Part shown: positions 6,654 through 26,030 of the stretch, in pieces
How the letters are laid out: the number at the start of each line of letters is the position of its first letter
Position numbering within the stretch: the first letter of the stretch is position 1
DNA from: a virus
DNA: 30,194 bases
IMG/VR virus record: IMGVR_UViG_3300000235_000015
Location: 1 to 30,194 of that record
Reading direction: 5' to 3' (one strand)
Translations under genes and position numbers: made by a program
The notes under the pieces: generated by a model
Told to the model about the DNA's origin: nothing
Seen by the model: only the letters and a program-made list of their open reading frames with translations
Database searches by the model: none

Positions 6654-7276
6654 GAGGCCTCTGTAGCTTCAAGTATGTCGAGGATCTGCTCGGTTTGGTT
6701 CACATCCCCTCGACAATAGGCCAAGAGTGTTGAAAGTTTGGTAGTGGTGGGTATCCCCTCTCTATACAGATCCCAAACCATACTCCCCGAGAAATCTTTC
6801 TTGGGGGAAGGGAGACCCACAAGGAGGCACGCATCCATAAGGCTGAGCTTGGGCCCACTACCGAATTGGAGGAGCTCCATCACATCTACCACCTTGATAT
6901 CCCAAGGCTTCTTCCCAGCTACGGAAAGCTGGGACGGCACAATCTCCTTTTGGGAAAGGAACCTATTGGCCAGGAAGGGTATATCAAAGCCCTTCACATT
7001 GAACCCAGCCAACCAAGGGTCTCTGGACTTGTGAAGCCAGTTCCGAAATTCAAGTAGCATCCCCTTCTCTGCCAACCGAGAATCGTTCTCGATGGCCATT
7101 TCAAAGGTGTCCCCAGTCTCTCTGGATTTGGCGCAGATGCAGCAGACCAAGCTAAATGCGGGGTGGAGGCTGGCATCCCTATCATCGGTGATCTTCTTTC
7201 TCTCCTTATACTTCTCCCATTCCACTGTACACAGAGTGGCCCAGTTGGGGATAGTCTCGATATCAAATACGATCAT
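6647..7276 (-). CDS. DnaQ-like 3'-5' exonuclease (PolB-type exonuclease fold)
   Basis: 209 aa, a stand-alone RNase H-fold exonuclease. Exo I is FDIET (residues 4-8) and exo II is GFNVKGFDIPFL. Exo III is YCRGDV near the C-terminus; Y..xD is the DEDDy type. The segment FGSGPKLSLMDAC is also typical of PolB-like exonucleases. It degrades single strands 3' to 5', probably for repair or recombination, since the phage polymerase has its own proofreading domain. It is coupled to the DUF3310 gene by ATGA. Confidence 0.88.
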   Translation of the reverse strand: MIVFDIETIPNWATLCTVEWEKYKERKKITDDRDASLHPAFSLVCCICAKSRETGDTFEMAIENDSRLAEKGMLLEFRNWLHKSRDPWLAGFNVKGFDIPFLANRFLSQKEIVPSQLSVAGKKPWDIKVVDVMELLQFGSGPKLSLMDACLLVGLPSPKKDFSGSMVWDLYREGIPTTTKLSTLLAYCRGDVNQTEQILDILEATEASV

Positions 7277-7875
7277 ATAGGCCTCTTCAAGTGGATGGGT
7301 TTGCGACAGTTAGGACAGAACTTGAATCCCATTTCGGGAGCCCTTGGGCTGTCATCAGGGAATCGAAAGGTTGTACCGCAACCAGTGTTGTAATCTGGTT
7401 GCTGATTGGGCTTGGGGGGCTCCCAATGGCAGGCATTCGTAGGGATAGCCAGCTCACCCACTTCCTTGGACAGGTCTTCAATTAGGAACTTGGCCAATCC
7501 CAATTGCCTAAATTGGCGAGGTTGGCCATATTCCACGTGCCTCCATCCGCAAATGATCTCTATAATACTTTTGGCCATCGGATGGGTATCCGGCCAGCTT
7601 TCCCATAGCTTTGAGAGAGGGATCGGTAGGTGTCCGTATCTTGGCCCAGCCCCATCGCCCCATTTGCTTTTGGCAGTGAGATCCTCGAGAAGCTGGATGT
7701 AGTGTTTGGCCTTGTCAATGTCCTCGAGCCCGTTCTTTTTAGAGTAGCGGAGCAGGTACTTGACCACATTACCTTCGCAGAAGGAAAGTTGGTTGATCTC
7801 GGAGAACTCTACGGGCTGGATTTCCACACCCTTGTAGTGATCCCCACCAATCTGAATAGCTAGACTAGATCTCAC
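7273..7875 (-). CDS. DUF3310 protein with C-terminal zinc ribbon
   Basis: 200 aa. The N-terminal 70 residues match the DUF3310 (SaV-like) pattern: GGDHYKG, IQPVEF, FCEGNVVKYLLRYSKK and DIDKAKHYI. The family is widespread in phages and often labelled 'nucleotide kinase' without a P-loop to support it; none is seen here. The C-terminal 35 residues contain CGTTF ... FCPNCRKPI, a four-cysteine zinc ribbon. The start codon is GTG, supported by GGGAGGTGA just upstream. It overlaps the SbcD stop by 11 bp. A nucleotide-metabolism role is possible, given the MazG gene nearby. Confidence 0.75.
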   Translation of the reverse strand: MRSSLAIQIGGDHYKGVEIQPVEFSEINQLSFCEGNVVKYLLRYSKKNGLEDIDKAKHYIQLLEDLTAKSKWGDGAGPRYGHLPIPLSKLWESWPDTHPMAKSIIEIICGWRHVEYGQPRQFRQLGLAKFLIEDLSKEVGELAIPTNACHWEPPKPNQQPDYNTGCGTTFRFPDDSPRAPEMGFKFCPNCRKPIHLKRPI

Positions 7876-8746
7876 TGGTCACCTCCCTCATGATTGAATA
7901 CACTTTTGATTGAACATCCTTTTTGAGCCCGATGCTCTTCCTATCGACATTGTCCGTAAAAGACAAGGTCACTCCCCCACCCTTGGCCACCGCATCCAGG
8001 AAGGCCTCGATTCTCTCATCTCTGGCCTTCGCTTCTGTAAGGTACTCATCAGTGACCACAGAGTTGTCAGCTGCTGGGATTTGAAACCAGCGGCACTTAT
8101 GAGTATCGGTCTCGACCAAGACTATCGCTGGCTGGTACCCAATCATGTCCGCGGCTTGAATGTTGATGCACCCAGGGTTGATCAGGGTACGACCATCCTC
8201 ACCCTCGAAAACGAAAGAGTGGTGGTAGTCTCCGGTGATGATCAGTCGGCTTTCCGGAAACTCTGCCAAAATCTCTTCAGCGGTGAAACCAATACCCTCA
8301 ATCGGGCGGGCTTCTGCGTTGGGGAAAACAAGTCTATGCAAGACTCGGACTGGGGAAGAGCAGGCCTTATCAAGTCCGAATGGCCACCCGCATATAGGGT
8401 AAGCTGGTCCGGAGATTTCTTGCAGGAACCCAGCCCTGCGGAGGGTTCCGAAGCTGCACCGTTCTACATTCTCATAGGAATGGTATGGTAGATCATGGTT
8501 CCCCGCAAGGATTTGAACCGGTACTTTGGCCCGCCCAAGCTCTTCTAGGGCCATGTTGACTACCTCTGTGGCCACCCTTGGGAGGTGAAAGATATCCCCG
8601 GCAATCACCAGCAGCTCTGCGTGATTATTGGCCATCTCCACAATATAGGCCACATCCCGTCTTTGGGATTCGAGCCAGTCTAGATCGGTGCGGCAACGAG
8701 GGCGTTCACCTCGCAGATGCCAGTCCGCCGTGAACATTACTCGCAC
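7865..8746 (-). CDS. sbcD: SbcD/Mre11-like nuclease subunit
   Basis: 293 aa metallophosphoesterase. The metal-binding motifs are in order: ADWH (D8, H10), GDIFH (50-54), GNHD (82-85) and GDYHH near 170. The final 'NPG' block follows as NPGCINI. This is the Mre11/SbcD set, and it would act with an SbcC/Rad50 ATPase to cut hairpins and blocked ends. The GTG start gives MRVMFTADWH, which aligns with the usual SbcD beginning; an ATG three codons later is possible. It sits between the two halves of the split SbcC, consistent with one complex. Confidence 0.9.
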   Translation of the reverse strand: MRVMFTADWHLRGERPRCRTDLDWLESQRRDVAYIVEMANNHAELLVIAGDIFHLPRVATEVVNMALEELGRAKVPVQILAGNHDLPYHSYENVERCSFGTLRRAGFLQEISGPAYPICGWPFGLDKACSSPVRVLHRLVFPNAEARPIEGIGFTAEEILAEFPESRLIITGDYHHSFVFEGEDGRTLINPGCINIQAADMIGYQPAIVLVETDTHKCRWFQIPAADNSVVTDEYLTEAKARDERIEAFLDAVAKGGGVTLSFTDNVDRKSIGLKKDVQSKVYSIMREVTSEI

Positions 8747-9159
8747 TCTTCGTTCCCCTCGTGGCTGGGGCAGCCATCGATAGCTTGTGCATTGCTTTCC
8801 AGCGAAGCCCGCTCTGCGGGTAGGTCGCGATTGATCACGAGCTCCCCTGTGTACTTCTCAGGGAACCGGACTTGTAGCTTTTTGATATTGGCCTCCATCA
8901 CCTGCTCCATAGACCAGCCCATTCGCTCGCAGATCATTCCCACATACCATAGGACATCCCCGAGCTCTTCCTGGAAGTTGACCTCATCGAAGTCCTTGTC
9001 ATAAATGAGAAACTTTTTGACCGAGTCCATGGCTTCCCCAGCCTCGGTACAGAGGCCCATGGCCGCATGGAGGATATCAACTCCAGCCCCATCAATTTGG
9101 AGGCCTCGGAGAGGGACGCAGGTATCGGTAGCAAGTTTCTGGTATTCGTTGATGTTCAT
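8737..9159 (-). CDS. MazG-like nucleotide pyrophosphohydrolase
   Basis: 140 aa all-alpha NTP-PPase. It has the EAGE motif in LCTEAGEAMD and the downstream metal motif EELGDVLWY, the ExxE...ExxD pattern of MazG/MazG-like enzymes. Such enzymes hydrolyse (d)NTPs to monophosphates; phages use them for nucleotide-pool cleaning or to lower alarmone signalling. The C-terminal 30 residues are extra and unstructured-looking. AAAGGAG precedes the ATG. The gene lies within the sbcD-sbcC operon. Confidence 0.88.
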   Translation of the reverse strand: MNINEYQKLATDTCVPLRGLQIDGAGVDILHAAMGLCTEAGEAMDSVKKFLIYDKDFDEVNFQEELGDVLWYVGMICERMGWSMEQVMEANIKKLQVRFPEKYTGELVINRDLPAERASLESNAQAIDGCPSHEGNEECE

Positions 9160-15716: not shown

Positions 15717-15751
15717 GATGTACTCCTTGTTTAGGGTTGAGGGATTATACC
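15707..15751 (-). repeat. 45-bp leader cassette, copy 2
   Basis: Identical to 6609-6653. It starts exactly at the polymerase stop codon (TAG at 15753-15751) and ends inside codon 4 of the small helical gene. It contains GGTATAAT (-10 at 15749-15744), a leader and AAGGAG. No -35 consensus is present at the expected distance. Confidence 0.9.
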
Positions 15752-18324
15752 TACAGAGCACCCAGGGATTCCATCTCTGCCCACGATCCATCGATTTTGG
15801 AGCGTTCAGCTTCTAGAGTCAAGGGTACATTGATCCAAGACCAGGCCTCCCTGATCTTCTTGGTTGCGTATTCCTTCATGATAGCATTTACCTGCTCTTC
15901 CTCTTCTGGGTGAATATCCCCGACCATCGCATCGTGAATCTGCCCTATGATCTCGCTGCGACCAGAGAGGCCTCGGACGATCGGTGCAACTTCCGCGATG
16001 TCCCAAAGTAGGCAGTGAAAGGCAGAGCCTTGAATGGGGCGATTGGTTCCTTCTGTGTAGGCTACTGGGCCATAGCAGCGAAAGCCCGTATACAGCTCGA
16101 TATAACCATCTTCTTCGTACCGAGCATACATACTACGCTTCCACTTGTCATACACCTTAAAGCGTGTACCCCAAAAGTGCTTCTCAATCTCCGCTAGGTG
16201 AGTACTGAACTCCCCGAGGTTGGTAAGCCCATGAGTGGCCATATGATCGCGGGTTTCCTGGTCAACATTCTCCCATAAGTCAGGAGCCATCGACTTGCAG
16301 GTAGCTCCATAAAAGCTGGGGAACACAAACATATTTTTGGCCCATTGGCGTTCCTGCTTTCGAAAGGTCTCTTTCTTGCGCTTGAAAATCTCGCAGGCCA
16401 TATCTCGATGCATATCCGTAGCAGGGTCTTCTATATATTTCATCATCGTCGGGTCTTTATGGTAGCAGGCGGAGATACATACCTCCACACCCTTGTAGTC
16501 CCACTCATAAATACGGTTCCCTACTCTCGGCCTGATCAGGCTCCGGACGATCTTCTGCGCCTCTTTATCCCGTTTGGGGATATTCTGGAAGTTGGGGCTA
16601 TCAGAGGAGCTACGGAATGTGACCACTTTATGTAGGTTGAAGAATGGGCGAACCACCCCATCAACCTGCTCTCTTTTAAACTGGGCCAAGTAGGTGTCCC
16701 TCATCTTTTGCCATCTTCTCCAAGCGAGTGTGAGAGTACATAACTCGGACTTGAGCTTGGACAAAGAGGGTTCATCCACCCCTCTGTTATGGGATCGGTA
16801 CTTCAATACATCATACAGGAGAATGGCCATATCCGTGTTAGAAGTATGTTTGAATGGGGCGGGGCCAGGCCACACCCGTACCTCGGGACAGGCTATAATT
16901 TGCTTTTCTAAGGATACCATCTTCTCCGTGAGGGATGCCCATTGCGCATCCAGCTGCTCCATGCGGATATACATACCAGCATTCTGTACCTTGGTGAGCT
17001 CATACCCACCATCCAGGAAGAAGTAAAAGCCCTTCCGTTGGAGGGGATCCTCTAGATCAGCCAGCTGTGCCTCATATATTGGCATCATATATAGGCTGTC
17101 CTTCGCGTTATATTCGAGTAGGTCAATCATCGAGAATCCAGGACCAGGGCGATACAGCTTGTTGAAGGCGTTCGCGGAGTTCCTATCCTCCCCGTCCAAG
17201 GGCTTGGTGACCCATTGATCCATCTTGGCATCGTACCCAGCTATGCCCAACCGAGTGTAGGCTTCAAACTTGAGGCCGGTGGGTGCATTATTGTTGATGC
17301 AGTGAGCTCCGAGGCAAGTGTCCCATTCATAGTGGGTTGGCCAGTAGGGTTCAACGCCCTCGCCCCAAGCTCGGAACCTTGTCCAAGTTTGCTCGAAGTC
17401 CCCTTTGTGGGCCACCCTTTTCACCTTGGGATCGGTCATCAGTTCCTTCCAAGCGGAGAGGAAGTCGGTAGACTTGAACCAAGGAAAGGCTCCAGCCCAC
17501 CACTGTCCATCTTTCTTGAAAGATAGGGAAGCGCATACAATGCGGTGCCCTTCCCTGTGGGGCTTGATACCGGTGGTCTCATAATCGAAGCCCACCGCAG
17601 ACTTCGCCTTGATTCCGGCCTTGATCCAAGCGACTGCCTGCTTCTCTTCCTGGGTGATTTCCCAGTTCTCCGATATGACCGGGAAGGGAGTTCGCTTGGT
17701 AGCCAATGCCCAGGCCTTCTTGAGGTGGTCGAAGGTGAAAGCCCGTTCAACTTTGTTGCGCCGAGGGTCTCTCAGCTCATCCAGGCTGTATGTGGGGCAT
17801 ACCCAAGCATCAAGGCTTCTCTCTGGGATAGCCTTTCCAAAGAACTGGTGGGGGGATACATTGGTAATTCTTCCCGCGAGGTTGTCCCAGAGGACAGACA
17901 TGATAGGCATAGTACCCAGTGGAATAATTACAGCTGGTTTTAGATCAGAAATGAGTTTCGTCAGCTTGGGCTTGCAAAATTGAAAGGCTGTCAAATTCTC
18001 CGTGGGTACTGGGCACCTTGAGGCGTAGGTCACCCAGCAGTCTTCCCAAAATGTTTTTGAAATACGGGAAGCGATATCCCGGATGAATTGTAGACGGGAT
18101 CCCAGGGAGAGGTCTTCCTCCTCCACAGCATCCAGGCTGGGGCTTTCTAGAATCAGCAGAATACCCTTTTTCCCTTCCCCTTGGTAGGGGATCGGTGAAC
18201 CTGCCCAACACTTGTCTAACTTACACTCTGGGCAACCACCAGCCACCCCATTCTTTATCTTCCGCTTGGGGAGGTCAACATCTGGGGCTGGGCCGAGGTC
18301 GAAAAATCCTTGATGAATGGCCAT
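15751..18324 (-). CDS. Family-A DNA polymerase with N-terminal uracil-DNA-glycosylase-like domain
   Basis: 857 aa. Residues 30-190 resemble family-4/5 uracil-DNA glycosylases, with Fe-S cysteines C31, C34, C104 and C117 and the 'C.p.L...i....P..ii.LG' block. However, the GEAPG motif reads LESPS and the HPS motif reads CPTYS, so key catalytic residues appear lost. The 3'-5' exonuclease follows: FDYETTG (about 246-252), the D309 region, and YNAKDS (405-410). The polymerase motifs are A EWDYKGVEV (D609), B ERQWAK...FVFPSFYG (658-673) and C QIHDAM (H797, D798). ATG 18324 is preferred over a GTG five codons upstream because TAGGA precedes it. It is the replicative polymerase. Confidence 0.92.
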   Translation of the reverse strand: MAIHQGFFDLGPAPDVDLPKRKIKNGVAGGCPECKLDKCWAGSPIPYQGEGKKGILLILESPSLDAVEEEDLSLGSRLQFIRDIASRISKTFWEDCWVTYASRCPVPTENLTAFQFCKPKLTKLISDLKPAVIIPLGTMPIMSVLWDNLAGRITNVSPHQFFGKAIPERSLDAWVCPTYSLDELRDPRRNKVERAFTFDHLKKAWALATKRTPFPVISENWEITQEEKQAVAWIKAGIKAKSAVGFDYETTGIKPHREGHRIVCASLSFKKDGQWWAGAFPWFKSTDFLSAWKELMTDPKVKRVAHKGDFEQTWTRFRAWGEGVEPYWPTHYEWDTCLGAHCINNNAPTGLKFEAYTRLGIAGYDAKMDQWVTKPLDGEDRNSANAFNKLYRPGPGFSMIDLLEYNAKDSLYMMPIYEAQLADLEDPLQRKGFYFFLDGGYELTKVQNAGMYIRMEQLDAQWASLTEKMVSLEKQIIACPEVRVWPGPAPFKHTSNTDMAILLYDVLKYRSHNRGVDEPSLSKLKSELCTLTLAWRRWQKMRDTYLAQFKREQVDGVVRPFFNLHKVVTFRSSSDSPNFQNIPKRDKEAQKIVRSLIRPRVGNRIYEWDYKGVEVCISACYHKDPTMMKYIEDPATDMHRDMACEIFKRKKETFRKQERQWAKNMFVFPSFYGATCKSMAPDLWENVDQETRDHMATHGLTNLGEFSTHLAEIEKHFWGTRFKVYDKWKRSMYARYEEDGYIELYTGFRCYGPVAYTEGTNRPIQGSAFHCLLWDIAEVAPIVRGLSGRSEIIGQIHDAMVGDIHPEEEEQVNAIMKEYATKKIREAWSWINVPLTLEAERSKIDGSWAEMESLGAL

Positions 18325-18340
18325 AGTTTTCCTATACACG

Positions 18341-18377: not shown

Positions 18378-19427
18378 TTATTCTTTGATGGAACTTGCAG
18401 CGACTTGCACATAGCCTGGAGTAGAGAACACTAGGGCTGTGCTGTTTGTTGATGGGCTGGTGGTCAGATAGAACTCCACCACTTTCTTTCCAGCCTCGAG
18501 AAGGAAGGAAGAGTCCACCCATACTTCAGTTGTGGGGCAGTTGAGAGGTGTTTCCCAAGGAATGGATTCACTGGCCTTGCCCGTAGTCTTCTCTGCGAAG
18601 ACCACCAACTCCGTAGCAGTAAGTGTAAGCTTGACAGGGAAGCTACCTTTCACATCGGTTGCTAGAGTAGCTACTCGGTCAACCACTTCCGTGAGGGTTG
18701 CTGGGAGCTTTCCACCCACATCCCCTTCCTTACGATCCATTCCTGTGATTAACTGATCCAGTAGCTTGATCGGGTACTTGGTATGATCCTTCCGCTTACA
18801 GCTGAAGATGGTTCCATCAGCAAGGCGGAAGTGTACCCAAGCCTCGGACAGGGAGTAGTCTTTCACCTGATCGAGCTTGAGAAGGTCTGCCACTGCGGGG
18901 TCATCGATCCAGAAGGGCTTCATCTCTCCCTTCAAGGTGAAGCGGTTCATACGAACAGAGTCGGTGGAAACCATGAGCACTCCATCAACAGCAACGCCTC
19001 GCTTGGGGTCAGAGTTTTGGGCCATCTTGACCAGCTTGAGACCAGCCGAGAAGTCTTCTGGTACAGCTTCGAATACGAGCTGCTCTAGTTTCAGCTCAGT
19101 GAGATAGCTCCCTACCTTACTATCGATGAGGGAAAGCTCGGCCTTGGTGCGGCCTGCGGTGAAGAGCCACTTGTTGGCCACCACTTCCACTTCAATGATC
19201 GGTGCATTGATTTTGGACACAAGTCGGAAAGCATCCATAGACTTGCAGGCACCAGCCAATCCATCCAGTTCAACTGGGACAGATACGGATACCGAGTCGT
19301 TGTAGGAGTGTAAGAACTTCCCGGAGAAGAGGAAGGTATCTGCCCCCTCGATCAGTGATGCACCTTTGTCCACCCCAGGTAGGGCTTTCTTCATGGCGAC
19401 GAGTAGCTGGTCTTTTGCGATATTCAT
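18378..19427 (-). CDS. DnaN-like sliding clamp
   Basis: 349 aa. It has the layout of bacterial beta clamps: an N-terminal start MNIAKDQLLVAMKKALPGVDK, a central VLMVSTDSVRMNRFTL (beta clamps have 'TDgyRLa'), and a C-terminal ALVFSTPGYVQVAASSI in place of the 'y.iMPmRL' end. It would encircle DNA and tether the PolA-type polymerase encoded next, after loading by the DnaX-like protein. Sequence similarity is weak and the call rests on layout and context. AAGGAG precedes the ATG. Confidence 0.72.
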   Translation of the reverse strand: MNIAKDQLLVAMKKALPGVDKGASLIEGADTFLFSGKFLHSYNDSVSVSVPVELDGLAGACKSMDAFRLVSKINAPIIEVEVVANKWLFTAGRTKAELSLIDSKVGSYLTELKLEQLVFEAVPEDFSAGLKLVKMAQNSDPKRGVAVDGVLMVSTDSVRMNRFTLKGEMKPFWIDDPAVADLLKLDQVKDYSLSEAWVHFRLADGTIFSCKRKDHTKYPIKLLDQLITGMDRKEGDVGGKLPATLTEVVDRVATLATDVKGSFPVKLTLTATELVVFAEKTTGKASESIPWETPLNCPTTEVWVDSSFLLEAGKKVVEFYLTTSPSTNSTALVFSTPGYVQVAASSIKE

Positions 19428-19445: not shown

Positions 19446-20267
19446 TTAGAGAAAGAAATTGGTGGTTGGTTTGAAAACCTTCATCGCCTTGTGGTGGAGG
19501 CTTTCGTAGTAAGCAACTGAGATATAAACACGCTCTCGCGTACCGAGGGATGATTGCTCCTGTGCCACGTCATAATTGAAGCCAAGGGATTCTACCCAGG
19601 ATCGGACAATATCCACAGCCTTGGTGGTCTTCCATCCTTGGTCATCTATACGGACCTTCGGGTTCAGCTTTACAGCCTTCCGTTGCGGAGTGAAGATTCC
19701 ACCGAAACGAGCCATTACATGTACGGAGGTGGCATCTACCGACTTCCAAGGGTAGCCAAGAATCAGATCTTCGTCCATAATGCCGTAGCCATGGAACCCC
19801 ACCTTCTCAGGATCAGGGTAGAGTGTGAAGACTTTATCGAGGAACTTATGGAGCCTGTTTTTGCCAGCCCCAACCATTCCCCCAAGCCCAATATAGTCCG
19901 TGACCCCAGCCATCTTATGTAGCCATTCCTCCGGTTCACCTTCATGGAAGGCTGGAAGTGGCTGAAGGCCTGCATCGAGCATCTTCTCATAGTTGATCCA
20001 TGAGGCCTCTGCATCACCAATCACATCAAGTGCTGCGTATACATTGAGGATGGGTGCATTCTCCTTCAGGAATTGGATATACTCCATCAGGTTGATCGGT
20101 TTCCCACTCTTCGAGGTAGTGAAGGCTCCCGAGTCAAGGAAGTAGCTGTCGCAGTAGTAGGGGATCTTAATCTTGCGGATTGTAGCATAGCTTTGCAGTA
20201 CACCAATCTGAGGCATCCTACCATCTTCGTACTTCCCAGAGGTGATATTCGAGTAGTAAATTTTCAT
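19446..20267 (-). CDS. dpdA: DpdA-like DNA guanine transglycosylase, paralogue 1
   Basis: 273 aa, a TGT-related TIM-barrel protein of the phage DpdA type. Key blocks are YFLDSGAFT (Asp45, candidate general base), AALDVIGDAEAS (about 79-89), LPAFHEGE, DYIGLGGM, VGFHGYG and YPWKSVDATS (Asp178, candidate nucleophile). DpdA exchanges guanine in DNA for a 7-deazaguanine. It is the last gene of the modification block, coupled to queE by ATGA. A second DpdA paralogue lies at 21841-22665; the two share a 29-bp identical stretch, suggesting duplication within the phage lineage. The two may differ in site or substrate. Confidence 0.85.
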   Translation of the reverse strand: MKIYYSNITSGKYEDGRMPQIGVLQSYATIRKIKIPYYCDSYFLDSGAFTTSKSGKPINLMEYIQFLKENAPILNVYAALDVIGDAEASWINYEKMLDAGLQPLPAFHEGEPEEWLHKMAGVTDYIGLGGMVGAGKNRLHKFLDKVFTLYPDPEKVGFHGYGIMDEDLILGYPWKSVDATSVHVMARFGGIFTPQRKAVKLNPKVRIDDQGWKTTKAVDIVRSWVESLGFNYDVAQEQSSLGTRERVYISVAYYESLHHKAMKVFKPTTNFFL

Positions 20268-20977
20268 TCGATACCTACCAGCTTATGCGTTTGTAGGGAA
20301 AGGCGGTATCCCTCGGACTTGACCAGCTTGATAGCCAAATCTGTGGACTCTGCTACTGCGGAGTTGGGCTGGATATAAATGATCGATGGTGGTAGGTACT
20401 TACCCTGGAGAGCCTCCTTGGCCATTTCCCAAGCCTCAATATCCAGTTCCGTACCAATGACCAGCTTGACCTCGTCTGCGTAAATAAGCTCATCTATTAG
20501 TACCGGCAGGGTATCGTTGATCCCGAACTTGGGGCTGACAGTGATATAGGGCCTCACTTCGCAGTCGTACAATAGGGAGGTGAACGAGATTGTACCCGAG
20601 GTCTCAATCTGTACCTCGTAGGATCGGGAGGTCAAGAAGTTGATGAAGTCTACCAGCTGCTCTTTGTGGATAAGAGGCTCCCCGCCTGTGATAACAACCA
20701 GCGGGGGATTCTCGGGTCGGAACACTAAGCTCTCCATCGCTCCGAGGATATCTTCGAACTCCATCTTCGCATAGGTAGGCCTGGGGATGTATCCACCCTT
20801 GGCTAGCATTTCAAGCTCGCTGACTTCCTTGTCCTTCCCTAGTGACCAAGTGTGTTTTGTATCGCACCAAGGGCAGTGGACTGGGCAGCCCTGCAGACGA
20901 ATGAATACGGAGGGACGACCGGCCATACCACCTTCGCCTTGAATGGTGTAGAAAATCTCATTGACGGGAAGTGTCAT
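20264..20977 (-). CDS. queE: QueE-like radical SAM enzyme (7-carboxy-7-deazaguanine synthase)
   Basis: 237 aa. FYTIQGEGGMAGRPSVFIR and the radical SAM cluster motif C31-x3-C35-x2-C38 (in GCPVHCPWCDTKHTW) are diagnostic for QueE. ITGGEPL is the SAM-binding GGE motif. It converts CPH4 to CDG in preQ0 synthesis. The open frame begins at 21112 within the PRTase gene, but the ATG at 20977 (MTLPVNEIFYT) has AAAGGAG upstream and matches family length, so it is chosen. It overlaps the PRTase by 20 bp. Confidence 0.93.
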   Translation of the reverse strand: MTLPVNEIFYTIQGEGGMAGRPSVFIRLQGCPVHCPWCDTKHTWSLGKDKEVSELEMLAKGGYIPRPTYAKMEFEDILGAMESLVFRPENPPLVVITGGEPLIHKEQLVDFINFLTSRSYEVQIETSGTISFTSLLYDCEVRPYITVSPKFGINDTLPVLIDELIYADEVKLVIGTELDIEAWEMAKEALQGKYLPPSIIYIQPNSAVAESTDLAIKLVKSEGYRLSLQTHKLVGIE

Positions 20978-21410
20978 ATTGCTCCTTTTCCGCGACCCAG
21001 TTTTCAGCCTTCTCCCAAGGAAATACCACCCATTCCTCTGTAGCAAATAGGAGGGCTTTGGTTCTGTCCTTGGCTGGATTGAGGTGTTGATTTCGTTTGA
21101 GTACCCAAGCAAAAATAAGGCCGGTGGGATAGGCTTCTAGGAATATAGAGGCTTCAGCTCCACTGTCCACAATATCATCGAGGAATAGTACATGCTTGTG
21201 GGATACGTGGCCCAAGTCCAGAATCATTGGGATCTCCAAGATGTGGGATAGGGTTACACCAAGAACAAGCCCGCCTCTTGGTGGGGCATAGATAACGCAG
21301 TCTTCCTTTTTAAGGCCTTCTGTCTCCAAGGTAGCCAGAATGAGATCCTCCATCTTATGGCAATCCCTGGCCCAGTTGCCCCAACCAAGCAGTAGTTTAC
21401 GGAAACTCAT
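20958..21410 (-). CDS. Purine-type phosphoribosyltransferase in the deazaguanine cluster
   Basis: 150 aa type-I PRTase. The PRPP loop is VLFLDDIVDSGAEA (74-87). The N-terminal PPi loop is YAPPRGG (41-47). The C-terminal EEWVVFPWE is typical of (hypo)xanthine/guanine PRTases and sits where they bind the purine. It would convert a purine base plus PRPP to a nucleotide. The start at 21410 (MSFRKLLLGWG) overlaps the queD stop as ATGA, rather than the ATG seven codons upstream. It is not a known preQ0 pathway enzyme. Since DpdA exchange releases guanine, salvage to GMP is an attractive role, but substrate is inferred. Confidence 0.8.
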   Translation of the reverse strand: MSFRKLLLGWGNWARDCHKMEDLILATLETEGLKKEDCVIYAPPRGGLVLGVTLSHILEIPMILDLGHVSHKHVLFLDDIVDSGAEASIFLEAYPTGLIFAWVLKRNQHLNPAKDRTKALLFATEEWVVFPWEKAENWVAEKEQYDTSRQ

Positions 21411-21832
21411 AGGGTAGCCTCTGCATGACACTTATAGGTCTCTTCTACCTTGACCTCTACCAACTCCACATCCCCAGGGAGGTAAAGTGGTCCAATGTTG
21501 GTGAGTAGGTACTCTGCCATGTTTTCCGCGGTGGGGTTGAATGGTACCAAGCATACACCTTCAGGATCCATCTTTTGCATTTCCTCCGCCTGTGGGTCTT
21601 CTGCCCATAGAACCATTTTGTGGTCCCAGTTGGCCTCCAGCCACATACAGAGGATAGATTTGATCACCGAGAAGTCGATCACCCTCCCGATTTGGTCAAG
21701 CCCAACCTTGGGGGCAATCTTGAAATGCACCCTGTAATTGTGCCCATGAAAGTGCTTGCACTTGCTTTCATGGTTGACCACTCGGTGGCCAACTGAGATA
21801 TCGTGGAATCTTATCGCGTAAATTTTGGACAT
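21407..21832 (-). CDS. queD: QueD (6-carboxy-tetrahydropterin synthase)
   Basis: 141 aa, the PTPS/QueD fold. Zinc ligands His16 (GHRV) and His29/His31 (HFHGHNY) are present, with the catalytic Cys25 in ESKCKHF. Typical later blocks are VIDFSVIK, WDHKMVL, PTAENMAEYL and VEETYKCHAE. It makes CPH4 from dihydroneopterin triphosphate supplied by FolE. TAGGA precedes the ATG, and a GGTATAAT sits 33 bases upstream within the end of DpdA-2, so it may have its own promoter. Confidence 0.93.
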   Translation of the reverse strand: MSKIYAIRFHDISVGHRVVNHESKCKHFHGHNYRVHFKIAPKVGLDQIGRVIDFSVIKSILCMWLEANWDHKMVLWAEDPQAEEMQKMDPEGVCLVPFNPTAENMAEYLLTNIGPLYLPGDVELVEVKVEETYKCHAEATL

Positions 21833-21840
21833 TTGAGTTC

Positions 21841-22665
21841 CTAGAAGAAGAAGTTATTGGTCAGATTATACCGAGTGGGGGACTCGTCTGCCACGCACTC
21901 GAGCCGGTAGGCATTGACCTTCATACGCTCAATACGACCTTCCCGATCATTCTTGTTGCAGAGTTCCCAGCTGAAGCCGATTGATTGTACCCATTCGCGA
22001 ACCTTTTCCAAACTTATGGGGGAGTCTTGCCAAGCCTTCGCTGGTGCCGCCACTTTCTCTCCTACGCAATAAGTACCCCACGGAGTTTGTAATCTGCCGG
22101 AAAAGGCACAGAAGTACGCCCCAGTTGAGTCTGCAGTTTTCCAAGGGTACGCCCGCAGCAGGTCAGGATCGGTGACCCCGTACCCATGGAAGCCGACTTC
22201 CGCTGGATTTGGGAACATACTGAACACCCTGTCCATAAACTTGTGACGCTGCTTCTTATTGCAGAGTGCGATATTGCCCAGCCCAATATAGTTCGTGTGT
22301 TTGGCGTACTCTTGTAGGTAGCTCAAGTCCTCACCTTCATGGAAGGCCGGAAGTGGGTCGAGGCCTCGTTCCCTCATTTTCAAGTAGTTCTTCAAGGAGG
22401 CCTCTGCATCACCAATCACATCAAGGGCTGCGTAGGTGGTGACCTGATCACCCCGTTCCTTCAAGAAGGAGCAGTAGTCGTCTAGGGAAATGACCTTACC
22501 ACTTTTCCAAGCGGAGAAGGCCCCAGAGTCCAGGAAGTAGATGTCCGACCATTCCGCCCGCTTGATCTCTTTCACACTAGCAAAAGAGGAAAGAACCCCT
22601 ATTGAACGATGAAACCCGATGGGGAGCTTGTAGATTGCATCCATTCCGCCGTGATAGAGCCTCAT
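21841..22665 (-). CDS. dpdA: DpdA-like DNA guanine transglycosylase, paralogue 2
   Basis: 274 aa. It has the same family blocks as the protein at 19446-20267: YFLDSGAFSAW (Asp46), ALDVIGDAEAS, LPAFHEGED, YIGLGN, VGFHGYG and YPWKTADST (Asp179). Both candidate catalytic Asp are kept, so it does not look like a dead copy. It differs mainly after residue 180 (AYFCAFSG versus SVHVMARFGG), where TGT enzymes contact substrate and zinc. It is coupled to folE by ATGA. The two proteins could act on different bases or DNA contexts, or together as a heterodimer; none is proven. Confidence 0.85.
   Translation of the reverse strand: MRLYHGGMDAIYKLPIGFHRSIGVLSSFASVKEIKRAEWSDIYFLDSGAFSAWKSGKVISLDDYCSFLKERGDQVTTYAALDVIGDAEASLKNYLKMRERGLDPLPAFHEGEDLSYLQEYAKHTNYIGLGNIALCNKKQRHKFMDRVFSMFPNPAEVGFHGYGVTDPDLLRAYPWKTADSTGAYFCAFSGRLQTPWGTYCVGEKVAAPAKAWQDSPISLEKVREWVQSIGFSWELCNKNDREGRIERMKVNAYRLECVADESPTRYNLTNNFFF
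21865..21870 (-). promoter_or_regulatory. GGTATAAT box upstream of queD
   Basis: TATAAT on the minus strand within the 3' end of DpdA-2, 33 bases before the queD ATG, in the same GGTATAAT context as the leader cassettes. No -35 match is visible at the expected distance, so it is only a candidate. Confidence 0.35.
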
Positions 22666-23318
22666 TTATTCATCTCCACCAGCTTGAGAAACTCACTGCG
22701 AGCTGCGGGGTCATCCCGGAAGATCCCACGCATCACGGAGGTCGTCATTTCACTGGATGGCTCTTTGACCCCTCTCCAGGTCATACAGTAGTGCTTGGCC
22801 TTCACAATCACAGCTACACCCTTGGGAGTAATCACCTTTTGGATGATGTCTGCAAATTGGATAGTGGCTTCCTCCTGAATCTGTGGGCGGGAGAAGATCC
22901 AGTCGGCCAACCGGCTGAACTTGGAAAGCCCGATGAGGCGGTCTCCGGGGATGATACCCACCCAAGCCTGCCCCATGATAGGAACCATGTGGTGGCTACA
23001 TCCACTACGGATGGTGATCGGTCCCACGAGGTAGATCTCGTCTAGGTGCTCGGTATTGGGGAAGTCCTTGAGCTCCGGCATTGGTTGATAGCGACCCTTG
23101 AATACTTCCGTGAGAAACATCTTGGCCATCCGGCGAGCAGTCCCTTTGGTGTTGGGGTCGTTCTCCGTATCGATAGCCAAGGCCTCAAGTAGATTTTGGC
23201 AGGCCTCCTGCACTTCTTCTCTCATATTTCCCCATACCTCGGGATTGATATGCTCGGCGATGTTAGAGTTGGCCATCGCTGGGACTGACTTAGATTTAAG
23301 CATTTTTAACAGGTTCAT
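22662..23318 (-). CDS. folE: GTP cyclohydrolase I (FolE)
   Basis: 218 aa. The zinc and catalytic motifs of GCH-I are complete: SGCSHHMVPIMGQAWVG (C107, H109, H110), GLSKFSRLADWIFSRPQIQE and AKHYCMTWRGVK (C178). It converts GTP to dihydroneopterin triphosphate, the first step of preQ0 synthesis. The longest frame starts at 23348 inside queC; the ATG at 23318 with AAAGGAG five bases upstream is chosen. It is followed by DpdA-2 with an ATGA overlap. Confidence 0.95.
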   Translation of the reverse strand: MNLLKMLKSKSVPAMANSNIAEHINPEVWGNMREEVQEACQNLLEALAIDTENDPNTKGTARRMAKMFLTEVFKGRYQPMPELKDFPNTEHLDEIYLVGPITIRSGCSHHMVPIMGQAWVGIIPGDRLIGLSKFSRLADWIFSRPQIQEEATIQFADIIQKVITPKGVAVIVKAKHYCMTWRGVKEPSSEMTTSVMRGIFRDDPAARSEFLKLVEMNK

Positions 23319-23328
23319 ATGGTCTCCT

Positions 23329-24582
23329 TTAAGTGAAAGCTGGGTCATCTATACCGTTACGGTCGAAAGCAGTTTTACGCATAAAGCATGGGCCACACTG
23401 GCCACAATGGGTGTCCCCGTTTCTGTAACAGGACCAAGTGAGATCCATTGGAGCCCTGATATAAGCACCGAGCTTTACAATCTCATGCTTCATGAGGTGC
23501 CCTACGGGCTGATGCACCCGTACATAGTTCCCCTCATTCACGGCGTTGGGGAGTAGTTGGTTGAAAAGATTGATAAACTCGCCCTCATTGTCCGGATAGG
23601 CTCCGGATTCCTCCAGGTTGGTACCTAGACAAAGGTGGCTGAAGTTATTGGCCTCTGCGAAGGCTACTGCCAAGGACAGCATCACCAAGTTGCGGGCTGG
23701 TACCCATTCATGGGCATATTCAGCTCCAGCCAATCCCCCAGCGATATTATCGTCTTTTTGTAGGAGGGGAGAGTTGCCTGCCATTGCCGAGTAGCCCAAG
23801 GGCAAGAAATGTACTTTGGTACCCATTCGCTCGGCAATGGCCTTGATACGGGACACCTCATTATCCTCTGCCTTGCAACCATACTGGAAATGTAGGAGTT
23901 CTACCTCGTACCCTTGAGTCTGCATCCACTTGGCAGCTACGGTGGAGTCAAGTCCCGCGGAGGCGATGGCGAGGCATCTCTCATTGATGATGCGAGGGAT
24001 CGGCTCGGATTGCAGAGTGCTGAGGCTCAATACCGTATACGGCTCAAGTTTGCAAGGGCGATGACCAATCTCAACCACTGGGTCAAGGAATTGAGCAAGG
24101 CTCGCGAAATAGATACAGGTGGCTCCTGGGGTGATGCTGGCATAGTAGTATAGCGGCTTGTAATTTGCAGCCAAGTACATATCGTGCTCACCTACAATCG
24201 CCAAGGCGTAGCTCCCTTTGAGCTTCCCCAGCGAGGTAGCCACAGATCTTATACTTGTCCTGTCCAATACCTTGGGGATGATTTCGCTGTCAACTGCACC
24301 CGGAGGATTGCCAAGTTCTTTATCGTTGGCGATTGTTCCGTTATGTACCACCCCATCGTATGGCTGCAGACGGGTGGGGTTATCAAGCTCCGTAGTGGGG
24401 GTCGCCCTGTTATTACCAATCAACCAGTTGATCGGTACAGTTTTTGGCCCATCACCAGAAGGAACCATCATGGTTCCCTTCGTGAAGCCCTCCGCATCTC
24501 GACCTCGGAGCTTACTAAGAGTTTTGATCTCTTGTAGCTTGCTGTGATCGTAGTTTCCAAACGCCCCATAAATTGAGCACAT
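23329..24582 (-). CDS. queC: GAT-QueC: glutamine amidotransferase fused to preQ0 synthase
   Basis: 417 aa in two domains. Residues 1-195 are a class-II (Ntn) glutaminase: MCSIYGAFG with nucleophile Cys2, RGRDAEGF, GNNRAT and HNGTI. Residues 200-417 are QueC: the PP-loop ASAGLDSTVAAKW (208-213 core), NLVMLSLAVAFAE, and the zinc cysteines C385, C393, C396 and C399 in CGQCGPC. QueC makes preQ0 from CDG. The GAT-QueC fusion is known from Crenarchaeota and phage 9g, where it is linked to conversion of preQ0 nitrile to the amidine of archaeosine. AAGGAG precedes the ATG. It heads the modification block. Confidence 0.93.
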   Translation of the reverse strand: MCSIYGAFGNYDHSKLQEIKTLSKLRGRDAEGFTKGTMMVPSGDGPKTVPINWLIGNNRATPTTELDNPTRLQPYDGVVHNGTIANDKELGNPPGAVDSEIIPKVLDRTSIRSVATSLGKLKGSYALAIVGEHDMYLAANYKPLYYYASITPGATCIYFASLAQFLDPVVEIGHRPCKLEPYTVLSLSTLQSEPIPRIINERCLAIASAGLDSTVAAKWMQTQGYEVELLHFQYGCKAEDNEVSRIKAIAERMGTKVHFLPLGYSAMAGNSPLLQKDDNIAGGLAGAEYAHEWVPARNLVMLSLAVAFAEANNFSHLCLGTNLEESGAYPDNEGEFINLFNQLLPNAVNEGNYVRVHQPVGHLMKHEIVKLGAYIRAPMDLTWSCYRNGDTHCGQCGPCFMRKTAFDRNGIDDPAFT

Positions 24583-24584
24583 AT

Positions 24585-26030
24585 TTAATCTCCTTGGTTG
24601 TTTTTACCATAAGCCTGTTCGGTCGGTAAGGTATGAGCGTGGATACGGCTCTTAACCTTGGCATCCATGAACGGTCGGCCAATCTTGAGGGCTTGGGTGA
24701 CTACCACCTGGTCCAGGAAGGCCTCTCCTTCCCTCTGCACCTTACAGCCCAGCCTCATAAGGCCTTGAGCAATCTCCTCTTCCGTTTGGTTGAGTGTGAT
24801 GAGCTTGGTGAGGTGAGCGATCTTTCTCATATCTTCTGCTGCATCCTCTGCTTCAACATCTTTCTTACCCGACATTGTCTTTCTACCAGATTGGGAGGCG
24901 GTAGCGATGGCCACATTCAACTCCTGGGCCAGCCCTCGGATTCCACCCCAGATGGAGTTCAGCCTATGGCGCTCCTCGTTGATACCCTTGTCATCTGCCA
25001 TAATATCGGCATAGTCAATAGAGATGAAGTCGGGTACATAGTTCTCGTACATCTCCAGGTTATGAAGAACAGTTCTCAGATCGGTGAGAGTTAAGGTAGT
25101 GGTGGGGAAAGTAAGTACACGAAATCCACCACTACGTGCATTCATTTTGATCTTGCGTATCTCCGTAGCAATGTTTTCCTGGGTAGGTGTTTCAAAGGTG
25201 CGGGTCATGGGCCTATACTCCAGAGACCACTTGTCTCCATCTTGTACAAATCGCCCCACATCAAAGTGTACCTCACCCTTCCGAGGCATGCCCTTCAAGG
25301 ATTGCCAAATGCGGCGGGTGACCTGATTCTCGGTCATCTCCAGGTTGATATGCAAGGCCTTACATCCAGTGAGTGCAGCCCTTTGAGCGAGGTATAGGAG
25401 CCACCAGGTCTTACCTCGCTTTGGTGGCCCCATAAACGAAATGAAGTCACCCCTATTAACGGAGCCGATGGCGAGGCCGAGGTCTCCTGGTAGTGTGAAG
25501 AGCTCTTCTTCTGCTTCGTTGAAGGCAGAAGCCACCCTTTCGAAATCGGAGAATAGGTCGATTCCCTGGCCATTTACCCTTTCCACCCTCTTGTATTCCG
25601 CAATCAACTTCTCTCCAGCCTTGGCATCGCCTTGCCCAATAACAGCCTCTAGCTGATCCTTCATCAAGGTGAGAGACCTCATCTTAAACCAGTCTACCGC
25701 TACCTTGGCAGAATAGGCCTTATTGTTCGGTACATTGGCCTCCCAATCCCTAGAGAGCCTGGAGAGGAACTCCCCCACCATTTCTTGGGTTTCATCTTCC
25801 CGTATCTCACTCTTCCTCTTGCGGTAAATATCCTCGATCGCTCGACCAGGAGCTTCCTTTGTAAGGGTAAAGAATTCCAGTACCCAAGAGGCTACTGCTC
25901 TGGAATACGAGGACTCGAATAGCCTAGACTGGGCAACCGAGGAAATCTCCAACAAAAAGGGAGTCGAAGTGATCATATGGGACAATACTCGTCTTTCTTC
26001 CGATAGATCAACTTTGGTTCTCTGCATCAT
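24585..26030 (-). CDS. DnaB-like replicative helicase
   Basis: 481 aa. An all-helical N-terminal domain (1-150, starting VDLSEERRVLSHMITST) is followed by a RecA-like motor. Walker A is GPPKRGKTW (201-209), Walker B FISIDYADIM, and ATASQSGR corresponds to the DnaB 'isQL.R' block. It unwinds the fork and would pair with the DnaG-like primase at 4375-5289. The Walker A sequence with P-P-K-R is unusual but keeps the G...GKT core. The start overlaps the SNF2 stop as ATGA. Confidence 0.88.
   Translation of the reverse strand: MMQRTKVDLSEERRVLSHMITSTPFLLEISSVAQSRLFESSYSRAVASWVLEFFTLTKEAPGRAIEDIYRKRKSEIREDETQEMVGEFLSRLSRDWEANVPNNKAYSAKVAVDWFKMRSLTLMKDQLEAVIGQGDAKAGEKLIAEYKRVERVNGQGIDLFSDFERVASAFNEAEEELFTLPGDLGLAIGSVNRGDFISFMGPPKRGKTWWLLYLAQRAALTGCKALHINLEMTENQVTRRIWQSLKGMPRKGEVHFDVGRFVQDGDKWSLEYRPMTRTFETPTQENIATEIRKIKMNARSGGFRVLTFPTTTLTLTDLRTVLHNLEMYENYVPDFISIDYADIMADDKGINEERHRLNSIWGGIRGLAQELNVAIATASQSGRKTMSGKKDVEAEDAAEDMRKIAHLTKLITLNQTEEEIAQGLMRLGCKVQREGEAFLDQVVVTQALKIGRPFMDAKVKSRIHAHTLPTEQAYGKNNQGD

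Follow-up and report, generated by a model that had tools for sequence, protein, structure and literature searches.

The closest described counterpart of the system treated here is that of phage 9g (Nonagvirus, Queuovirinae), which encodes FolE, QueD, QueE, a class II glutamine amidotransferase fused to QueC (GAT-QueC) and the DNA guanine transglycosylase DpdA, and in whose DNA deoxyarchaeosine (dG+) makes up 25-27% of dG. The FolE, QueD and QueE enzymes of 9g are able to replace those of E. coli, and with its GAT-QueC and DpdA together, plasmids in wild-type E. coli came to carry dG+ at 9-18% of G (PMC6884629); about 71% of more than 200 type II restriction enzymes are blocked on 9g DNA (PMC5567051). 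The same five functions are present in the IMG/VR virus record IMGVR_UViG_3300000235_000015, a stretch of 30,194 bases that is called the window below, where positions 19446-24582 carry seven minus-strand open reading frames (ORFs) that overlap or nearly abut, in the order GAT-QueC, FolE, DpdA-a, QueD, a Gpt-like purine phosphoribosyltransferase (PRTase), QueE and DpdA-b. At its core the block belongs to a known kind of system, here in a divergent phage, and it is a variant by virtue of the PRTase and the paired DpdAs. We put forward tentatively that the Gpt-like PRTase may belong regularly, though unrecognised, to 7-deazaguanine DNA modification in phages, its capture of guanine pulling the base exchange forward and sending guanine back to GTP.

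The first-pass annotation of this DNA had claimed a complete route from GTP to 7-cyano-7-deazaguanine (preQ0) together with DpdA-family transglycosylases; every gene that it named was found where it had placed it, in a single minus-strand block, and FolE, QueD, QueE and QueC are each matched by family searches. FolE, the GTP cyclohydrolase I of the first step (22662-23348), matches Pfam PF01227 (E 1.8e-49) and PHROG 2197 (E 2.5e-53), and QueD, 6-carboxytetrahydropterin synthase (21407-21832), matches Pfam PTPS (E 2.3e-23) and PHROG 2389 (E 2.9e-44). QueE (20264-20977), the radical S-adenosylmethionine enzyme 7-carboxy-7-deazaguanine (CDG) synthase, matches PHROG 2076 (E 2.1e-44) and TIGR04322 (E 4.5e-52, which is under the equivalog cut-off), and its likely start is ATG 20977, with AAGGAG upstream. 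GAT-QueC (23329-24582), which joins the amidotransferase to 7-cyano-7-deazaguanine synthase, is matched by Pfam QueC (E 3.9e-53), GATase_7 (E 4.3e-6) and PHROG 10428 (E 1.5e-111), and it aligns end to end with the GAT-QueC of 9g at 47% identity. The glutaminase residues are kept (Cys2, NNRAT and HNGTIAND), as is the zinc motif C(x)7CxxCxxC, but the PP-loop reads SAGLDS where SGGxDS is expected, a variant seen also in the GAT-QueC of locus L173. Because the zinc cysteines are kept and the Pfam QueC match is strong, the QueC assignment stands. The claim that all catalytic motifs are intact is true of the residues of the genes named there, save for this one variant.

By the chemistry established for 9g, FolE, QueD and QueE would convert GTP to CDG, GAT-QueC would carry CDG to preQ0 and on to the archaeosine amidine with ammonia supplied by its glutaminase domain, and, once the DNA has been replicated, the two DpdAs would replace its guanine by the modified base. 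We are fairly confident that the block is an operon for 7-deazaguanine modification of DNA, with dG+ as its predicted product. The modified base is most likely dG+, since GAT-QueC shares 47% identity with the 9g protein for which dG+ insertion was measured, and by the same analogy the phage DNA is most likely resistant to many restriction enzymes.

The PRTase, which the first-pass annotation had missed, occupies 20958-21431 on the minus strand (start at GTG 21431 or ATG 21410) and matches PHROG 8995 (E 1.7e-12). Compared with solved structures, the profile of its family matches the purine PRTase 1vdm (E 4.1e-29) and E. coli Gpt, 1a95 (E 1.5e-18), and an AlphaFold2 model of the window protein (predicted local distance difference test score, pLDDT, 89.9) is predicted to have the PRTase fold, with Z about 15 to Gpt and HGXPRT. 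It resembles E. coli Gpt and the archaeal purine PRTases in the residues of the pyrophosphate (PPi) loop, the phosphoribosyl pyrophosphate (PRPP) motif and the tryptophan as well. The PPi-loop RGG (R52-G54), D85, D86, W134 and P138 are invariant in 47 of 47 family sequences, and D89, the last acid of the DDxxD motif, is aspartate in 46 of the 47 and glutamate in the other. In 6-oxopurine PRTases this last acid acts on N7 of the base. The window PRTase thus has the three DDxxD acids (D85, D86 and D89) and the base-stacking W134 of a Gpt-type enzyme.

When IMG/VR was scanned with a profile of this PRTase, 187 relatives were confirmed, and the best 80 of them were used as loci. FolE, QueD, QueE or QueC lies within 4 kb in 68 of the 80 (within 1 kb in 64), a proportion biased upward by the use of cluster-linked members to build the profile, and in two more of these records QueD is found farther than 4 kb away. 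Among 51 random loci, fetched by an arbitrary 16-mer, preQ0 genes occur within 4 kb in 2, both of one lineage (68/80 vs 2/51, Fisher p 6e-22), and with so low a background an association by chance was set aside. A further set of 35 loci is free of the profile bias because it was fetched with DpdA alone; the PRTase is present in 14 of these, fused to FolE in 11. An association produced by the PRTase-derived query alone was set aside as well, given that the DpdA-seeded loci also show it. The gene order of the window, FolE, QueD, PRTase and QueE, recurs in seven loci (L012, L014, L028, L050, L059, L068 and L162).

Among the first sets of loci, 7 also have the fusion to FolE, and in the fused proteins the PRTase domain is joined to the N-terminus of FolE (L002, L003, L007, L039, L058, L082, L086, L143, L150, L152, L155, L156, L158, L159, L160, L161, L163 and L168). 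Three of these are annotated isolates (L002, L003 and L007), in which the fusion is recorded only as GTP cyclohydrolase. In an isolate collection searched with a single sequence, the PRTase was found in 35 of 50,697 records, and in the Vibrio and Stenotrophomonas isolates it is the N-terminal part of the annotated FolE. All seven isolate genera with the PRTase that were checked, the Campylobacter phages included, also encode QueD and a transglycosylase, the transglycosylase match in Brevundimonas being weak (E 6.8e-7). Beside the PRTase in 25 of the 80 loci stands a second, divergent transglycosylase family with the motif DNS for DSG (L006:10138-10932, L021, L048, L074, L032 and others), which is found in Campylobacter, Cellulophaga and Flavobacterium phages.

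The other departure from 9g is the DpdA pair. DpdA-a (21841-22665; PHROG 887, E 6.4e-38) and its paralogue DpdA-b (19446-20267; PHROG 887, E 3.5e-43), both on the minus strand, are 42% identical over their full length by BLASTP, and both keep D46, D82, H160 and D179, which include the catalytic aspartates and the DpdA histidine. The AlphaFold2 model of DpdA-a (pLDDT 88.8) is predicted to have the tRNA-guanine transglycosylase (TGT) fold, with Z 18.6 to the solved DpdA 7ui4 (256 aligned, root mean square deviation 3.5) and Z 18.9 to human TGT. Where the alignment reaches the GG motif of TGT, most relatives read GGx and DpdA-a reads GNI. The first-pass annotation had spoken of DpdAs in the plural and had not discussed why there should be two. 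In a tree of 58 sequences, in which the bootstrap values had yet to converge fully and many of the deep forks are open, DpdA-a and DpdA-b form a sister pair (support 100/99) that is separate, weakly placed and outside the 9g DpdA clade, and DpdA pairs are also seen in Microbacterium phage Megan (L008, 100/99) and in L144 (100/100). The sequences thus indicate that the window DpdAs are a lineage-specific pair and the pairs of Megan and L144 are of independent origin, so that tandem DpdA pairs appear to have arisen at least three times; two DpdAs are found in L143 as well. With lower confidence, the two proteins of the window probably differ in the target contexts or incoming bases that they take, or act together as unlike subunits. 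In L145 (6807-8600) and L144 (104-1830) a 57-residue ORF between the two DpdAs matches the QueC profile and is an apparent QueC remnant or small QueC-like protein. Single-protein scans of viral contigs with each DpdA and with the PRTase found no relative.

As to what the PRTase does, transglycosylation frees one guanine for each base inserted, and the PRTase may capture this guanine, converting guanine and PRPP to GMP; such capture would remove a competing base and return guanine toward GTP, the substrate of FolE. Recovery of the guanine released by DpdA is the leading, provisional reading: the fold and residues are of the guanine type, the nearest solved relatives use guanine, a transglycosylase is present in all isolate genera checked, and the link to FolE is frequent. 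Several points weigh against it beside the bias of the locus set. In the PRTase family the loop that links the PPi loop to the PRPP motif is about 20 residues shorter than in Gpt, and the window copy has E93 in the phosphate loop, where 44 of the 47 sequences have threonine or serine; it thus lacks both the full-length flexible loop and the phosphate-loop Thr/Ser of a Gpt-type enzyme, which makes its activity uncertain. A longer loop with QTRDG, absent from the window copy, is kept in some relatives (L024, L034, L049 and L005). Moreover, 9g has one DpdA and a cluster devoid of the PRTase, so dG+ can be made in the absence of both extra genes. The short loop and the glutamate, together with the repeated fusion or adjacency to FolE, could also be accounted for if the PRTase domain were a sensor that adjusts FolE when PRPP or a guanine nucleotide binds to it, like the PRT-fold regulators of other systems, but the invariance of the acids of the PRPP motif, of RGG in the PPi loop and of the base-stacking tryptophan is best explained by catalysis, and we regard a sensor as unlikely. 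A comparably low probability attaches to the proposal that the enzyme acts on a 7-deazaguanine (preQ0, CDG or the archaeosine base) to give a nucleotide that might be reduced and polymerised into DNA, by a pre-replicative route beside DpdA. Its location among preQ0 genes would suit such a substrate, and there is a precedent in TubE, which stands beside the same GTP-to-CDG genes in the tubercidin cluster and is a CDG-specific phosphoribosyltransferase (PMC6112128). TubE is like the window PRTase in lying within a GTP-to-7-deazaguanine gene cluster; it differs in its length (194 residues versus 157) and in serving antibiotic synthesis. A 7-deazaguanine substrate fits poorly with the transglycosylase found in all checked isolate genera that have the PRTase (weakly matched in Brevundimonas), with the N7-contacting acid that all 47 sequences keep and that would be useless for a C7-substituted base, and with the fusions, which join the PRTase to FolE and in no case to QueE or QueC.

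The base itself and the need for two DpdAs allow other explanations too. Vibrio phage nt-1, which has ArcS, contains mainly dPreQ0, the deoxynucleoside of preQ0, so an amidotransferase homologue is not always a guide to the base (PMC6884629), and with the variant PP-loop the amidination by GAT-QueC might have been lost or changed, leaving dPreQ0, deoxy-7-amido-7-deazaguanosine (dADG) or a mixture rather than mainly dG+; the intact glutaminase residues and the closeness to a 9g protein that makes dG+ leave this improbable. The two DpdAs share about 33-35% identity with 9g DpdA where they align with it, which counts against the main reading. The first-pass annotation had expected the enzymes to be placed with those of 9g-like phages, and this is borne out for GAT-QueC and less so for DpdA. 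Phages that have preQ0 genes and lack DpdA have been proposed to boost queuosine (Q) in the host (PMC6884629), but that the genes of the window serve host tRNA rather than phage DNA is very hard to reconcile with two DpdAs in the operon and with the presence of a GAT-QueC whose 9g homologue failed to restore Q in a queC mutant (PMC6884629). Finally, the second DpdA might be a redundant duplicate that has no separate role, as one DpdA suffices in 9g-like phages and the window copies are each other's closest relatives; we consider this rather doubtful, for at 42% identity both copies are intact where decay would be expected in the absence of selection, and the pairs of Megan and L144 are of separate origin.

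The surroundings of the block can likewise be compared with 9g. On one side it is flanked by a DnaB-like replicative helicase (24585-26030, minus strand; Pfam DnaB_C, E 7.9e-11; PHROG 19, E 5.8e-41), and on the other by a 349-residue possible sliding clamp (18378-19427, minus strand) that adjoins DNA polymerase A (PolA, 15751-18339). The block had been described as lying between helicase and clamp genes; Pfam and PHROG bear out the helicase, whereas for the clamp the support is weak, consisting of its position beside PolA, equivalent to that in 9g, Me-ZS1 and others, and of an hhalign match to phage clamps with a probability of 13% and E 0.002, and neither Pfam nor PHROG gave a match to this protein. 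The cluster of 9g is similarly placed beside a helicase and next to clamp and polymerase, but that helicase belongs to superfamily II, the gene order is different, and there is one DpdA where the window has two and a PRTase inside the block. BLASTP found no similarity between the window PolA and the 9g polymerase, and the window phage is therefore not simply a 9g relative. Elsewhere in the window, 8737-9159 and 7273-7875 encode a MazG-like pyrophosphatase and a partial nucleotide-kinase-like protein, possible nucleotide-pool genes of the same phage.

Other phages share parts of this arrangement. Vibrio phages 033B/VpKK5 and Stenotrophomonas phage ply2008005c have a block of QueE, QueC, QueD, FolE and DpdA with the same kind of PRTase domain, but in these the PRTase is fused to the FolE N-terminus, the QueC is plain and has no amidotransferase domain, and the DpdA is single. 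Megan has two adjacent DpdAs, a long QueC that keeps the amidotransferase motifs, QueD, QueE and FolE; its DpdA pair is of independent origin, and the PRTase was not found in the stretch searched.

No paper linking DpdA to a phosphoribosyltransferase turned up in the openly licensed literature, where wider queries gave only unrelated PRTases, and the link may already be in print. In one Campylobacter phage record the copy already carries the label 'purine phosphoribosyltransferase / queuosine biosynthesis protein'; given this label and a search confined to openly licensed papers, we do not claim that the link is absent from the literature. With the core cluster, a divergent lineage joins the phages predicted to carry archaeosine in their DNA, and the recurrent DpdA pairs offer a handle on how DpdA picks its target guanines. 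If the PRTase link holds, it completes the account of what becomes of the guanine expelled from DNA and supplies a gene, amenable to testing, whose presence may distinguish light from heavy replacement of guanine; guanine capture, if true, would permit heavy or complete replacement of guanine in the DNA of these phages.

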